64,000 bases of DNA from Rhodoplanes tepidamans. GTDB lineage: Bacteria; Pseudomonadota; Alphaproteobacteria; Rhizobiales; Xanthobacteraceae. Positions 96 through 4,404 of this stretch are shown piece after piece. Made by a program: the position numbers and the translations under genes. The number at the start of each line of letters is the position of its first letter. Position 1 is the first letter of the stretch. The notes beneath the pieces were generated by a model, which was not told the origin of the DNA, searched no databases, and saw only the letters and a list, made by a program, of their open reading frames with translations. The stretch lies in the NCBI RefSeq assembly GCF_030813915.1, contig NZ_JAUSUJ010000006.1, forward strand, positions 186,001 to 250,000, read 5' to 3'.

Positions 96-390
96 TCCTC
101 GCCTCCGGCGGCGGCGCGCCGCTCGTGCCTGTGCTGCTGTGGACGTCGTCCGCGGTCGGGGACATCGCGCGTCGAGAGCCGCGAGGGTGACGGGAGTCCC
201 GAGACCGCGTCAATCCCCGGCCGAGACAGGCCCGGGCCACGCCGGGCGCTTGACTCAAATCAAGGCCCGCGTGGGCCCTGGACATAAGCTTTCCACAGGT
301 TGCAAGCGGTCGGTGCCAGTCGACGAAGCAGACGGAGGGTGAGGGCCGGTTTCGACGTCGGCACGGTCTGGCCGCCAGAGGATGCCAGCC

Positions 391-801
391 ATGATCACCG
401 TTCCTGCCCTGACCATCTCGCCCGAGAAAGTCTGCTACGTCATCATGAAGGCGCGCGAGTTCGAGGTGCAGGACGTCGCCACCGACGGGGACGACACCGC
501 GGACGAGAGCGGCTGGTCGGCCCTCGACGCCCGCCGCGACGACCCGACCTATCGCGAGCTCAAGGCGTTCATCCGCTCCCTCAACCAGGACGAACAGGTG
601 GATCTGGTGGCGCTCACCTGGCTCGGGCGCGGCGACGGCTCGATCGACGACTGGGAGGATCTGCGCGCCGAGGCCGCCCGCGCCCACAACAAGCGGACCG
701 CCGACTACCTGCTCGCCAAGCCGCTGCTGCCCGACCATCTCGAGGACGCCCTCGACCAGTTCGGCTGCTCCTGCGACGACTACGACCTCGGGCATTTCTG
801 A
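391..801 (+). CDS. DUF3775 domain protein
   Basis: 136-residue soluble, acidic protein of unknown function. The core reads ISPEKVCYVIMKAREFEVQD near the N-terminus and then FIRSLNQDEQVDLVALTWLG (about residues 54-73) and GDGSIDDWEDL, which match my memory of the alphaproteobacterial DUF3775 family. I start it at the ATG at 391, because AGAGG (377-381) sits 9 bases upstream; an ATG at 382 would overlap that site. The C-terminus carries a CSCDDYD motif with two cysteines, conceivably metal binding (inference). It stands alone, facing the convergent apaG. Confidence 0.8.
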   Translation: MITVPALTISPEKVCYVIMKAREFEVQDVATDGDDTADESGWSALDARRDDPTYRELKAFIRSLNQDEQVDLVALTWLGRGDGSIDDWEDLRAEAARAHNKRTADYLLAKPLLPDHLEDALDQFGCSCDDYDLGHF

Positions 802-900: not shown

Positions 901-1296
901 TCAATTCACCACCCGGGGCGCCGCCTGCGGCGAGTCGAGCGAGAAGGTCGGAATGGCGATCTCGAAGCGCTCGCCGGTCTCCGAGGCCATTGTGTAAGTG
1001 CCAGTCATGAAACCGGAATCGGTCGTGAGCGGGACCCCGCTGGTGTATTCGAAGCTGGCGCCCGGCACCAGCACGGGCTGCTCGCCGACGACGCCGGCGC
1101 CGCGCACCTCCTGCAGCCGGCCGAGCGCATCGGTGATCCGCCAGTGGCGGCTCTCGAGCTGCACGGTCTCGACGCCGTGGTTGGTGATCTCGATCGTGTA
1201 GGACCAGAAGAAGTACCGCTTGTCGGCGGACGAGCGCTCCGGCAGGAAGCGCGGCGTCACCTTCACCTCGATGTCGCGGGTCCGTGCTGTGAACAT
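901..1296 (-). CDS. apaG: ApaG family protein (Co2+/Mg2+ efflux-associated)
   Basis: 131 residues, the usual ApaG length. ApaG is a small fibronectin-III-like beta-sandwich protein historically linked to cobalt/magnesium efflux and Ap4A levels. Family hallmarks are visible: the YFFWSYTIEITNHG strand, LESRHWRITDA, the glycine-rich GVVGEQPVLVPG turn, and FEYTSGVPLTTDSGFMTGTY. The reading frame stays open upstream to 1440, but that stretch is Arg/Pro-rich and unlike the family, so the ATG at 1296 (MFTARTRDIEV) is taken as the start. A single gene with its 3' end facing the DUF3775 gene. Confidence 0.93.
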   Translation of the reverse strand: MFTARTRDIEVKVTPRFLPERSSADKRYFFWSYTIEITNHGVETVQLESRHWRITDALGRLQEVRGAGVVGEQPVLVPGASFEYTSGVPLTTDSGFMTGTYTMASETGERFEIAIPTFSLDSPQAAPRVVN

Positions 1297-1526
1297 GGGC
1301 TCCTCGGGGACGGGCGCCGGCCCCGACGCGGGGCCGACCCGACTTATACCCGTTCGCGCCGACGGAACGAACCGTCGCGCCGGCGGGGCGCGGCGCGCGG
1401 CACGGCGCCACGGCCGGCGGCCGTCCTCGCTTCGCCTCATTGCGTCGCAATATCCCGGGCGCTCGTGCTATGCGGACGGTCCGGCCGCGCTGCGCCGCCG
1501 GACCGTCGTCGATCCGGGACCGACCC

Positions 1527-2681
1527 ATGACGGCTGCCAGTGGACGCGATCTGCGCCTCGACCTGTTCCGGGGGCTCGCGCTCTGGCTGATCTTCCTCGA
1601 CCACATCCCGTCGAACGTGGTGAGCTGGATCACCATCCGGAACTACGGGTTCAGCGACGCCACCGAGATCTTCGTCTTCATTTCCGGCTACACGGCCGCC
1701 TTCGTCTACGGGGCGACCATGCAGGAGCGCGGCTTCGTCGTCGCCTCGGCCCGCATCCTGCGCCGCGCCTGGCAGGTCTACGTCGCCCACATCTTCCTGT
1801 TCACCATCTACATGGCCGAGATCGCCTATGTCTCGGCGAGCTTCGAGAACCCGCTCTACGCCGAGGAAATGGGCGTGTTCGAGTTCCTGCGGCAGCCGGA
1901 CGTGACCCTCGTCCAGGCCCTGCTGCTGAAGTTCAAGCCGGCCAACATGGACGTGCTGCCGCTCTACATCGCGCTGCTGGCGGTGTTCCCGCCCTATGTC
2001 TGGCTGGTGCTGCGGGCGCCGACCGTCGCCCTGTTCGTGACCGTCGCCGTCTACGCGCTCGCCTGGGAGTTCGGGCTCAACCTGCCCGCCTATCCGAGCG
2101 GCCACTGGGTGTTCAATCCGTTCGCCTGGCAGCTCCTGTTCTGCTTCGGGGCATGGTGCGCGCTCGGCGGCATGGAGCGCATCGGCGGCTTCATCCGCTC
2201 GCCCTGGCTGGTCGCCCTCGCGGTCGTCTATCTGGTCGTCTCCTTCGCCATCGTGCTCACCTGGTACGTGCCGCCGTGGACCCGCTTCGTCCCGAAAGCA
2301 TTGGCCGAGTGGATGTACCCGATCGACAAGACCAACCTGGACGTCCTGCGGGTCGCCCACTTCTTCGCCCTCGCGGTGCTGGCGGTGCGCTTCGTCCCGG
2401 CCGACTGGCCGGCCCTGAAGTCGCGCTGGCTGCAGCCGGCCGTGATCTGCGGCCAGCACTCGCTGGAGATCTTCTGCCTCGGCGTGTTCCTTGCTTTCGC
2501 GGCACACTTCGCCATGGCGGAAATCTCGGACGGCATCCCGATGCAGGTCATTGTCAGTCTTCTCGGCGTTGTGGTTATGATTGCTGCGGCGGCCCTTATG
2601 TCCTGGTACAAGCAGATCGAGGGTCGCCACGCCGGATCGCGCGCCCAACCGAGCGCCGGGCCGGCCGGGAGTTCGCCATGA
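1527..2681 (+). CDS. OpgC-like membrane acyltransferase
   Basis: 384-residue polytopic membrane protein. The N-terminal signature RDLRLDLFRGLALWLIFLDH and the following SNVVSWITIRNYGFSDATEI are typical of OpgC, the integral-membrane acyltransferase that adds succinyl or other acyl groups to osmoregulated periplasmic glucans. About ten hydrophobic segments follow. The start is the ATG at 1527, giving the usual short cytoplasmic N-terminus; the frame is open further upstream but not OpgC-like. Its stop overlaps the next start as ATGA (2678-2681), so it is translationally coupled to a periplasmic SGNH-like protein. That pairing, a membrane acyltransferase plus a periplasmic SGNH protein, is how O-acylation of exported glycans is generally organised. 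The acyl group and acceptor are unknown. Confidence 0.9.
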   Translation: MTAASGRDLRLDLFRGLALWLIFLDHIPSNVVSWITIRNYGFSDATEIFVFISGYTAAFVYGATMQERGFVVASARILRRAWQVYVAHIFLFTIYMAEIAYVSASFENPLYAEEMGVFEFLRQPDVTLVQALLLKFKPANMDVLPLYIALLAVFPPYVWLVLRAPTVALFVTVAVYALAWEFGLNLPAYPSGHWVFNPFAWQLLFCFGAWCALGGMERIGGFIRSPWLVALAVVYLVVSFAIVLTWYVPPWTRFVPKALAEWMYPIDKTNLDVLRVAHFFALAVLAVRFVPADWPALKSRWLQPAVICGQHSLEIFCLGVFLAFAAHFAMAEISDGIPMQVIVSLLGVVVMIAAAALMSWYKQIEGRHAGSRAQPSAGPAGSSP

Positions 2682-3430
2682 CCCGCGCGGTCCTCGCCCT
2701 CGTCGGACTGCTGCTGTTCGCCGCCACCGCGCGCGCCGAGCCGGACGCGGCATGCCAGGTTCCCGAGGGCCTGGTCCAGGCCGACTTCCCGATGCCCCGG
2801 GTGGCCGAGGCGATCGCCGCCAAGACGCTCGAGATCGCCGTGATCGGCAGCGCCTCGTCGGCGCTCGCCGGACCGGGCGGCGCCGGCAAGGCCTATCCGG
2901 GACGGCTCGAGGCCGAGCTCGGGGCCGAGTTGCCGGGCGTCACGGTCCGGGTCAGCACCTTCGCCAAGCCGCGCCAGAGCGCGGCCGAGATGCAGGCCGT
3001 CATTCCCGAGATCCTCGCCACCAAGAAGCCCGCCCTGGTCGTCTGGCAGTCCGGCACCGCCGACGCGATCCGCGGGGTCGATCCCGAGGACTTCAGGTTC
3101 GCGCTCGAGGAGGGGGTCGAGGCACTGCACAAGGGCGGCGCCGACGTCGTGCTGATGAACATGCAGTTCAGCCCGCGGACGGAATCGATGATCGCGCTCA
3201 ACGCCTATGCGGACGCGATGCGATTTGTGGCGCTGCAGCAATCGGTCAATCTGTTCGACCGCTTCTCGGTGATGAAGCACTGGAACGAGGCCGGGGTGTT
3301 CGACCTGACCGTCGCCACCAAGAAGATGGACATGGCCGAGCGCGTGCATGCGTGCTTCGCCAAGCTGCTCGCAAGGCTGATCGTCGATTCCGTCGCCTTG
3401 ACAAGGCAGGAGCAGAAAGCAAACGATTGA
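2678..3430 (+). CDS. Exported SGNH-fold protein lacking all catalytic residues (pseudoenzyme)
   Basis: 250 residues with a clear signal peptide (MTRAVLALVGLLLFAATARA). It aligns along its whole length with the next gene product: shared landmarks are GS.S....G, YP.R, LVVWQSGT, DVVLMNMQFSP, FDRFSVMKHW and HACF. Where the neighbour has the SGNH catalytic set, this copy does not: GSSS is GSAS (Ser to Ala), the block II glycine region NRGVNG is STFAKP, GTN is GTA, and DGLH is KKMD, so nucleophile, oxyanion and Asp-His residues are all gone. The frame is intact and coding-like, so it is a pseudoenzyme rather than a decayed gene. It is coupled to the OpgC-like gene and lies 3 bases before the active paralog. 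A binding or scaffold role in glycan acylation is inference. Confidence 0.85.
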   Translation: MTRAVLALVGLLLFAATARAEPDAACQVPEGLVQADFPMPRVAEAIAAKTLEIAVIGSASSALAGPGGAGKAYPGRLEAELGAELPGVTVRVSTFAKPRQSAAEMQAVIPEILATKKPALVVWQSGTADAIRGVDPEDFRFALEEGVEALHKGGADVVLMNMQFSPRTESMIALNAYADAMRFVALQQSVNLFDRFSVMKHWNEAGVFDLTVATKKMDMAERVHACFAKLLARLIVDSVALTRQEQKAND

Positions 3431-3433
3431 AAT

Positions 3434-4255
3434 ATGACGTTTTCGCTCCTCGGCCGGCTGCGCGGCCCGCTCCTCGCCGCGCTCCTTCTCCCCGCCTTCG
3501 GCATCAGCGTACCGGCCTCCGCCTCCGACACGGCGCCGCCGTGTCGCCCGCAGGCGGACCTGACGCGTTTCGCCGACCGCCTGCCCCGCACGGCGGAACG
3601 GATCGCCAGGCATCAGCCGCTCACCATCGTGGCGCTGGGCTCGTCGTCGACGGCCGGCGCCGGGGCGAGCTCGCCCGACGCGTCCTATCCGAGCCGGATG
3701 GCGGCGCGGCTGCGCGAGACGCTGCCGGGCCAACACGTCACGGTGCTCAACCGCGGCGTCAACGGCGAGGACGCCCAGGACATGCTGGCCCGCCTCGAGG
3801 CCGGCGTGCTGGCCGAGAGGCCCGACCTGGTGCTGTGGCAGATCGGCACCAATGCGCTGCTGCGCGGCCATTCGCTCGACGGCGTGCGCACCATGGTGGC
3901 GGACGGCATCGCCCGGATCCGGCGCCAGGGCATCGACGTGGTGCTGATCGACCCGCAATACGCCCCGTCGGTGCTGGCCAAGCCGCAGGCGGCCGAGATG
4001 CTGGCGCTGCTCGCCCGGATGGCCCGGGAGGGCCATGCCGACCTGTTCCCCCGCTTCGCGGTGATGAAGCGCTGGCACGAGACCGAGCGGATTCCGATCG
4101 AGACGTTCATCGATCCGGACGGGCTCCACATGAACGACTGGAGCTACGCCTGCTTCGGCCGGCTGATGGCCGACGCCATCACCGAGGCGGCGACCCGGCC
4201 CGCCACCGTGGCGGCCGTCCCGCCGGTGCGGCCGGCCTCGCGGCCGCTGCCCTGA
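3434..4255 (+). CDS. Exported SGNH/GDSL hydrolase or acyltransferase
   Basis: 273 residues with a signal peptide ending near ASASDTAP (about residue 31). All SGNH blocks are present: block I ALGSSSTAGAG (Ser nucleophile), block II NRGVNGED (Gly), block III LWQIGTNAL (Asn) and block V DGLHMNDWSYACF (Asp-X-X-His). The protein should act in the periplasm on O-acyl groups of a glycan, either removing them or transferring them from the OpgC-like membrane protein encoded two genes upstream. It lies 3 bases after the inactive paralog, clearly the same transcript. The C-terminal 20 residues are Pro/Ala-rich and probably disordered. Confidence 0.9.
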   Translation: MTFSLLGRLRGPLLAALLLPAFGISVPASASDTAPPCRPQADLTRFADRLPRTAERIARHQPLTIVALGSSSTAGAGASSPDASYPSRMAARLRETLPGQHVTVLNRGVNGEDAQDMLARLEAGVLAERPDLVLWQIGTNALLRGHSLDGVRTMVADGIARIRRQGIDVVLIDPQYAPSVLAKPQAAEMLALLARMAREGHADLFPRFAVMKRWHETERIPIETFIDPDGLHMNDWSYACFGRLMADAITEAATRPATVAAVPPVRPASRPLP

Positions 4256-4404
4256 CCGCGTCGACGGCGGACACGGGCCCGGGCCATCGCGTCCGGGCTT
4301 GGCGGCGCCCGCCATCGGACCTATGTCAACGACGGCACCGCCGGCGCGACGCAGGCTGGCGGCATGGCATCCGTCCGCGGATGCCGCCTCGACAGGAGCG
4401 CCCG

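Follow-up and report, generated by a model that had tools for sequence, protein, structure and literature searches.

A degenerate SGNH-fold protein encoded next to opgC in Rhodoplanes tepidamans as a candidate partner of a membrane acyltransferase

Why does Rhodoplanes tepidamans keep, between a membrane acyltransferase gene and the gene for an intact SGNH protein, a full-length SGNH-fold protein without any of its catalytic residues? The locus that raises this question lies in a window of 64,000 nucleotides of contig NZ_JAUSUJ010000006.1, i.e., the whole stretch of DNA that was analyzed, and coordinates below are those of the window. Three genes follow each other on the forward strand: opgC (1527..2681), a gene for the degenerate SGNH protein, here called SG1 (2678..3430), and a gene for its intact paralog SG2 (3434..4255). 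Our preferred reading, to which we give a probability of about 0.55, is that SG1 is a non-catalytic pseudoenzyme kept as a dedicated periplasmic partner of OpgC, while a live SGNH protein does the serine chemistry. The link between SG1 and OpgC is well supported; the mechanism proposed below is one that we infer.

SG1 (250 amino acids) and SG2 (273 amino acids) are 32% identical over 206 columns (BLASTP, E 5e-28). Both match the Pfam family PF25182 (curated cut-off 80 bits), SG1 with 272.7 bits and SG2 with 187.1 bits, and PF13472 (Lipase_GDSL_2) is matched with 70.9 bits by SG2 and weakly by SG1 (36.7 bits, cut-off 32.9). SG2 carries S71, G108, N140, D229 and H232 in the order S-G-N-D-H and not in the circularly permuted order H-S-G-N, and none of the five residues varies among the 33 sequences of alignment A2. 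In the BLASTP alignment, S71 is paired with Ala59 of SG1 (block I, GSAS, 2852..2854), which takes the place of the nucleophile Ser, G108 with Ala96 (block II, 2963..2965), and N140 with Ala128 (block III, GTAD, 3059..3061). In block V, KKMD (residues 215-218, 3320..3331) stands in place of DGLH, with K215 paired to D229 and D218 to H232. SG2 thus has the residues of an SGNH hydrolase and SG1, with A/A/A/K/D at the S/G/N/D/H columns, does not. These replacements had been proposed in a first-pass annotation and are borne out by the comparison with SG2 and the orthologs, with a small correction to the reading of GSAS: the change from Ser to Ala stands, and Gly57 and Ser60, the latter next after the lost nucleophile, are retained, i.e., a GSxS frame minus the nucleophile. 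The AlphaFold2 models of SG1 and SG2 have predicted local distance difference test (pLDDT) values of 92.0 and 90.2, and both resemble solved SGNH structures. The best Foldseek match of SG1 is TesA (4jgg, E 7.2e-09, template modeling score to the target 0.72), which places it in the SGNH fold, and the best matches of SG2 are the two-domain acetylmannan esterase CEX (6hfz/6hh9).

A protein that misses all five catalytic residues could be a decaying pseudogene left from a duplication. A scan of a genome collection with the SG1 protein gave 22 loci, and a search of 60 genomes, R. tepidamans included, gave matches in 41; after removal of 8 duplicates, 42 distinct SG1 proteins were compared. The reading frame is open in all 42, and Ser, Asn and His are absent at the catalytic columns of every one, while the SG2 partners retain their catalytic residues wherever the column falls inside the contig (the SG2 of L022 is cut before block V). 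The ratio of nonsynonymous to synonymous substitution rates (dN/dS, Nei-Gojobori) of SG1 is 0.127-0.422 over 21 pairs, with 0.160-0.422 for 10 pairs around Rhodoplanes, 0.165-0.217 for 10 pairs around Nitrobacter and 0.127 for one further pair; the neighbors give 0.061-0.475 (SG2) and 0.043-0.301 (OpgC). Since these SG1 values are in the purifying range, SG1 is a maintained protein under purifying selection. Pseudogene decay is refuted for this lineage by the open frames, dN/dS, the high-confidence fold and the age of the clade, which is spread over the class, and its probability is negligible. The catalytic residues have not moved to shifted alignment positions either, as they are absent at every ortholog position; alignments of the 42 orthologs and of a wider set both speak against such a shift. 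The layout itself recurs, with a second SGNH copy at the same place for 54 of 57 distinct first copies and in the fetched stretch at 39 of the 42 ortholog loci (the exceptions being L011, L042 and L048 in both counts); the second copies of L055, L094 and L097 were counted under L068, L058 and L067, at the same place. Tandem or rearranged versions of the triple are found elsewhere in the class. The expectation that SG1 is a full-length protein with an open frame and conserved fold motifs, and that its homologs elsewhere show no random decay, therefore held.

Conservation within SG1 suggests what is being maintained. In alignment A1 (41 SG1 and 10 SG2 sequences, all 51 matching PF25182 at 1e-5), residues C26, C226, Q163, R195, M199 and W202 are invariant in dead and live paralogs alike. 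Cys26 and Cys226 may form a terminal disulfide, which would fit the one noted for PC-esterases (PMC2824669; this and the other papers given by PMC number are cited from the parts available to us). Among 49 dead copies of SG1's own family, the Ser column varies between Arg, Ala, Gly, Thr, Phe and Leu, while R167, D209 and H224 (1.00), S165 and R182 (0.98) and D194 (0.96) have become conserved; none of these six shows conservation in 70 live copies or among the 16 dead copies of the class-wide set. F139 and Y177 show it in both groups of dead copies, the own family (0.92 and 0.88) and the class-wide set (0.94 and 0.88), and live copies have other residues there. Because the Ser column varies while other positions of SG1 are invariant, selection acts on other surfaces or pockets and not on the old chemistry. 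These residues could also form a new active site, e.g., from S60 or S165 together with D209 and H224, all of which are conserved within the own family (S60 0.96, S165 0.98, D209 1.00, H224 1.00). However, the equivalents of S165, D209 and H224 are only 0.31-0.38 conserved in the 16 class-wide dead copies, and we regard a new active site as very unlikely.

The loss of catalytic residues is associated with the position next to opgC. Searches with the PF25182 profile gave places over the cut-off in 70 of 297 genomes of the order, 30 of 289 of the class and 25 of 299 of the phylum, and every listed place over the cut-off in the phylum search lies in the own class. For the wider comparison 109 regions were retrieved and one place over the cut-off (G851) was left out. 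Three duplicates found late, three rows that were duplicates or truncated at a locus end, the live copy of L022 (contig end), two pieces of a broken copy in L235, exact duplicates and domain matches of <150 profile positions were dropped before counting. The resulting 224 distinct alphaproteobacterial proteins comprise 111 encoded directly after opgC, i.e., on the same strand and within 1.5 kb (order set) or 0.4 kb (class-wide set), and 113 encoded elsewhere; opgC was seen for 110 of the 111, and L027 was assigned from its relative L028. At least one of the five catalytic residues is missing in 92 of the 111 adjacent copies versus 1 of the 113 others, with the reservation that these counts are non-independent samples. 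All five residues are gone in 54 of the degenerate adjacent copies, and Ser is missing in 66, Asn in 89 and His in 87. Degenerate does not always mean dead, as 26 of the 92 keep Ser, and 5 of those 26 also keep Gly and His. The sole full-length copy away from opgC with an altered catalytic column (L174, positions 3544-4258 of that locus, reverse strand) has Asp changed to Leu and keeps Ser and His.

Intermediate states are also seen. Directly after opgC in families f20 (L120, L137, L140, L144, L145, L147, L149, L150 and others) and f42 (L129-L131, L135, L142), copies retain Ser and Gly and miss the Asn of block III, the Asp or His of block V, or both, and these intermediates look like stages in the loss of catalysis. 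In one incomplete genome, the degenerate copy after opgC (L235, positions 3193-3843 of that locus) is split in two overlapping open frames, either by a frameshift or by an assembly error. An intact copy, adjoining or elsewhere, is also seen in 82 of the 93 genomes or records that carry a degenerate copy. For the live copies that stand alone, we looked for a common acyltransferase partner among 10 flanking open reading frames (some possibly not genes) at 9 loci (L222, L232 and 7 of the 40 at which a live copy stands alone) and found none; the frames encode SURF1, an AcrB-type protein, a histidine kinase, a solute-binding protein, DUF938, RecA and four proteins without a family, with nothing in common. 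Additionally, six genomes of genus g24 (G176, G145, G204, G227, G249 and G285) have 5 or 6 OpgC matches each, one of which is accompanied by a dead and a live SGNH copy.

With the motif columns left out, the trees show that catalytic residues changed state repeatedly. On the tree of 114 representatives, the dead copies of the own family form one clade (100/100), and the dead copies of family f28 are placed elsewhere, with L176 and L178 (100/99). A single origin of all first (T1) copies of the triples was rejected when their monophyly was forced (p-AU 0.0013, approximately unbiased test). The class-wide tree (99 proteins) unites 25 dead, opgC-adjacent copies, which represent 13 family codes, in a single clade (100/99). 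The change between the intact and the degenerate state requires at least 6 steps on both trees (L174 scored intact), of which the starred branches alone force 5. We assume that these steps are losses, as the count of changes cannot separate loss from regain.

The dead copy also follows OpgC in its evolutionary distances. Across 58 triples, r is 0.92 between the pairwise distances of OpgC and those of the dead copy, and 0.43 when the live copy is taken instead (partial correlations 0.90 versus -0.08). Within the 40 triples of the own family, the values are 0.87 and 0.76 (partial 0.71 versus 0.30); these correlations carry no significance test. Mean distances between the own family and f28 are 1.81 for OpgC, 2.50 for the dead copy and 1.02 for the live copy. 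On a quick OpgC tree of 48 rows, the OpgC of f28 groups with that of L176 and L178, as on the tree of the dead copies, while the live copy of f28 groups with the live copy of the own family. This fits a pair of OpgC and dead copy whose members moved together, or diverged together, next to a live copy of other history.

The same data bear on a heterodimer of SG1 and SG2, in which the dead subunit would support or regulate the live one and OpgC would be a mere genomic neighbor. The invariants common to dead and live paralogs (C26/C226, Q163, R195, M199 and W202) could form a common interface, and the second copy is present at nearly all own-family-type loci (39 of 42, see above). However, the dead copy tracks OpgC and not the live copy, as given by the partial correlations over all triples. 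The placement of the live copy is also variable: it can be next in line (L207-L212, L216, L219, L226), but at L213 it lies upstream of opgC, at L215 and L221 it is divergent, and for L217/L223, L218/L232 and L220/L222 it is found at another place in the genome, the last three arrangements arguing against the heterodimer. We consider the heterodimer improbable. The first-pass annotation had suggested that SG1 is likely retained for a role of its own, e.g., to bind glycan or to activate its partner, and this class of explanation is the favored one, with the coupling to OpgC supported by the adjacency counts, the distance correlations and the OpgC tree.

OpgC itself (384 amino acids) is a membrane acyltransferase of the OpgC_C kind, with a PF10129 match of 466.5 bits, above the cut-off. 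At E<=1 it matches solely OpgC_C and Acyl_transf_3 in Pfam, thus it is not an MBOAT protein, and it is the sole OpgC match at E<=0.001 in the 6.86 Mb genome. OpgC_C has been assigned to the TmAT superfamily (PMC12423673), and the R-X10-H motif described for AT3 (PMC9833829) is found near the N-terminus here and in 171 of 171 OpgC loci inspected, duplicates counted. The stop codon of opgC and the start codon of SG1 overlap as ATGA (2678..2681), which would imply translational coupling; a 4-base overlap is found at 28 of 42 distinct loci, with start codons chosen heuristically. SG1 likely has a signal peptide (residues 1-20, ...ATARA, 2678..2737, judged by eye), and SG2 starts 3 bases past the end of SG1 with a signal-like N-terminus. 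The overlap and the intact paralog 3 bases on had both been described in the first reading and are confirmed from sequence and Pfam. Just upstream of opgC lie genes for a DUF3775 protein (382-801, forward strand, PF12616) and an ApaG-domain protein (901-1308, reverse strand, PF04379). The closest SG1 among named records is from Rhodoplanes elegans DSM 11907, with 87% identity over the best segment (records very near the own genome were possibly excluded).

AT3 proteins are reported to carry acyl groups over the membrane, and in AT3-SGNH fusions the active SGNH domain finishes the transfer (PMC9558356, PMC9833829). Here, OpgC would move a succinyl or acetyl group over the inner membrane, and SG1 would bind OpgC on its periplasmic side, the glycan acceptor, or both, taking the seat of the active SGNH domain of the fusions as a docking or acceptor-binding subunit. 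The acyl-serine could then be formed by the intact SG2, or by a live copy that is not linked to the locus, which would complete or edit the transfer. Periplasmic glucans are succinylated by OpgC in several species (PMC4726272, PMC9558356). The acceptor would most likely be a periplasmic glucan here as well, because the genome has OpgG (649.8 bits) and a 2874-amino-acid frame containing GH94 (379.7 bits). Genes for the synthesis of osmoregulated periplasmic glucans are thus present, and their succinylation by OpgC is a prediction.

Several observations weigh against this reading. Intact copies make up 19 of the 111 adjacent to opgC, and an intact copy was not seen in 11 of the 93 genomes or records in which a degenerate one occurs; of these 11, G012 and G021 have further matches elsewhere, and some are incomplete. 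Among 30 loci obtained through an OpgC search, 12 have no SGNH gene within approximately 1.5 kb. A sign test on independent pairs for loss versus adjacency, with at most 5 supported pairs and none discordant, was not significant (p>=0.25). The distance correlations can reflect co-inheritance of adjoining genes, and within the 6 triples of f28 the values for OpgC-dead (0.63) and OpgC-live (0.54) differ little. In family f118 (L224, L225, L227), OpgC nests among the OpgCs that carry a dead copy on the quick tree, with only a live SGNH adjoining; since this OpgC of a dead-carrying lineage has the live copy alone beside it, the dead partner was apparently lost and would be dispensable there. Stand-alone OpgC/MdoC proteins have been described in enterics and Rhodobacter (PMC9558356). 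Finally, SG2 may be an esterase, because it keeps the block II Gly108, which is replaced in the transferases PatB and Streptococcus pneumoniae OatA (PMC12148441), and the solved structures closest to it are hydrolases; the Gly does not vary among the 33 sequences of A2, i.e., the PatB/OatA-type change to Ser or Asn has not occurred.

The last two points also favor SG1 as a lectin-like protein that binds glycan or acyl groups and presents the acceptor, with OpgC doing the whole transfer and SG2 being unrelated or an editing esterase. The hydrolase-type Gly and the acetyl-polysaccharide esterases among the structural matches of SG2, the OpgC/MdoC proteins described without SGNH partners in the available text of PMC9558356, and the new invariant polar residues of SG1 all agree with such a role. 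The recurring pairing of dead and live copies instead suggests one divided task, and we consider the lectin-like role unlikely. A dedicated, non-catalytic partner of OpgC remains our preferred reading for SG1. Extended beyond this locus, stand-alone TmATs of the OpgC kind may have a dedicated, repeatedly evolved periplasmic docking subunit that escaped notice because it is a dead SGNH protein, with the chemistry placed on a second, exchangeable live SGNH protein. We offer this wider proposal tentatively, at somewhat less than even odds. If true, a three-protein machine for envelope O-acylation, with docking and catalysis split, would be found across Alphaproteobacteria.

Whether stand-alone AT3/TmAT proteins depend on a partner, be it an SGNH protein or another one, is a stated open question (PMC9558356, PMC9833829). 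SG1 is a genetically tight candidate for such a partner of a stand-alone OpgC, and a pseudoenzyme, so that the question becomes testable in non-pathogenic alphaproteobacteria; it is also a case of recurrent loss of a catalytic set at one genomic position. Neither a system of OpgC with SGNH proteins nor a dead SGNH protein as a partner was found described in the literature searched, which excludes most subscription journals, and PF25182 was not named by any paper found there. The initial impression of an undescribed layout holds within this literature, with the exception that Pfam already has the family as 'Non-GDSL lipase-like family', a name from which the absence of the GDSL motif has probably been noticed. 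Both SG1 and SG2 score far above the cut-off of this family, but its model covers dead and live paralogs alike.

Among known systems, the AT3-SGNH fusions OatA and OafB (PMC9833829, PMC9558356, PMC7448272) likewise combine a TmAT-type acyltransferase with a periplasmic SGNH domain. However, their SGNH domain is fused and catalytic, whereas the proteins are separate here and the one coupled to opgC is without an active site. Alginate acetylation by AlgI-AlgJ-AlgX (PMC9487903) also combines a single membrane acyltransferase with two periplasmic proteins of SGNH-like type, but AlgI is an MBOAT protein and AlgJ and AlgX, which are circularly permuted, both keep a triad, while the present locus has PF10129, the canonical order and one dead copy. 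In PatA-PatB and DltB-DltX-DltD, the SGNH protein is likewise separate and receives the acyl group from a membrane protein, the MBOAT partner, via a tyrosine (PMC12148441). These systems differ in having that MBOAT partner and a single active SGNH protein, with the block II Gly changed to Ser or Asn in PatB. Stand-alone OpgC/MdoC succinyltransferases (PMC4726272, PMC9558356) are of the same OpgC kind by name and likely share the kind of substrate; the available text of both papers mentions no SGNH partner, while SGNH proteins adjoin opgC here. Collectively, the arrangement of OpgC with a dead and a live SGNH protein is a variant of the known arrangement of an acyltransferase plus SGNH, built from a family already present in Pfam as Non-GDSL.

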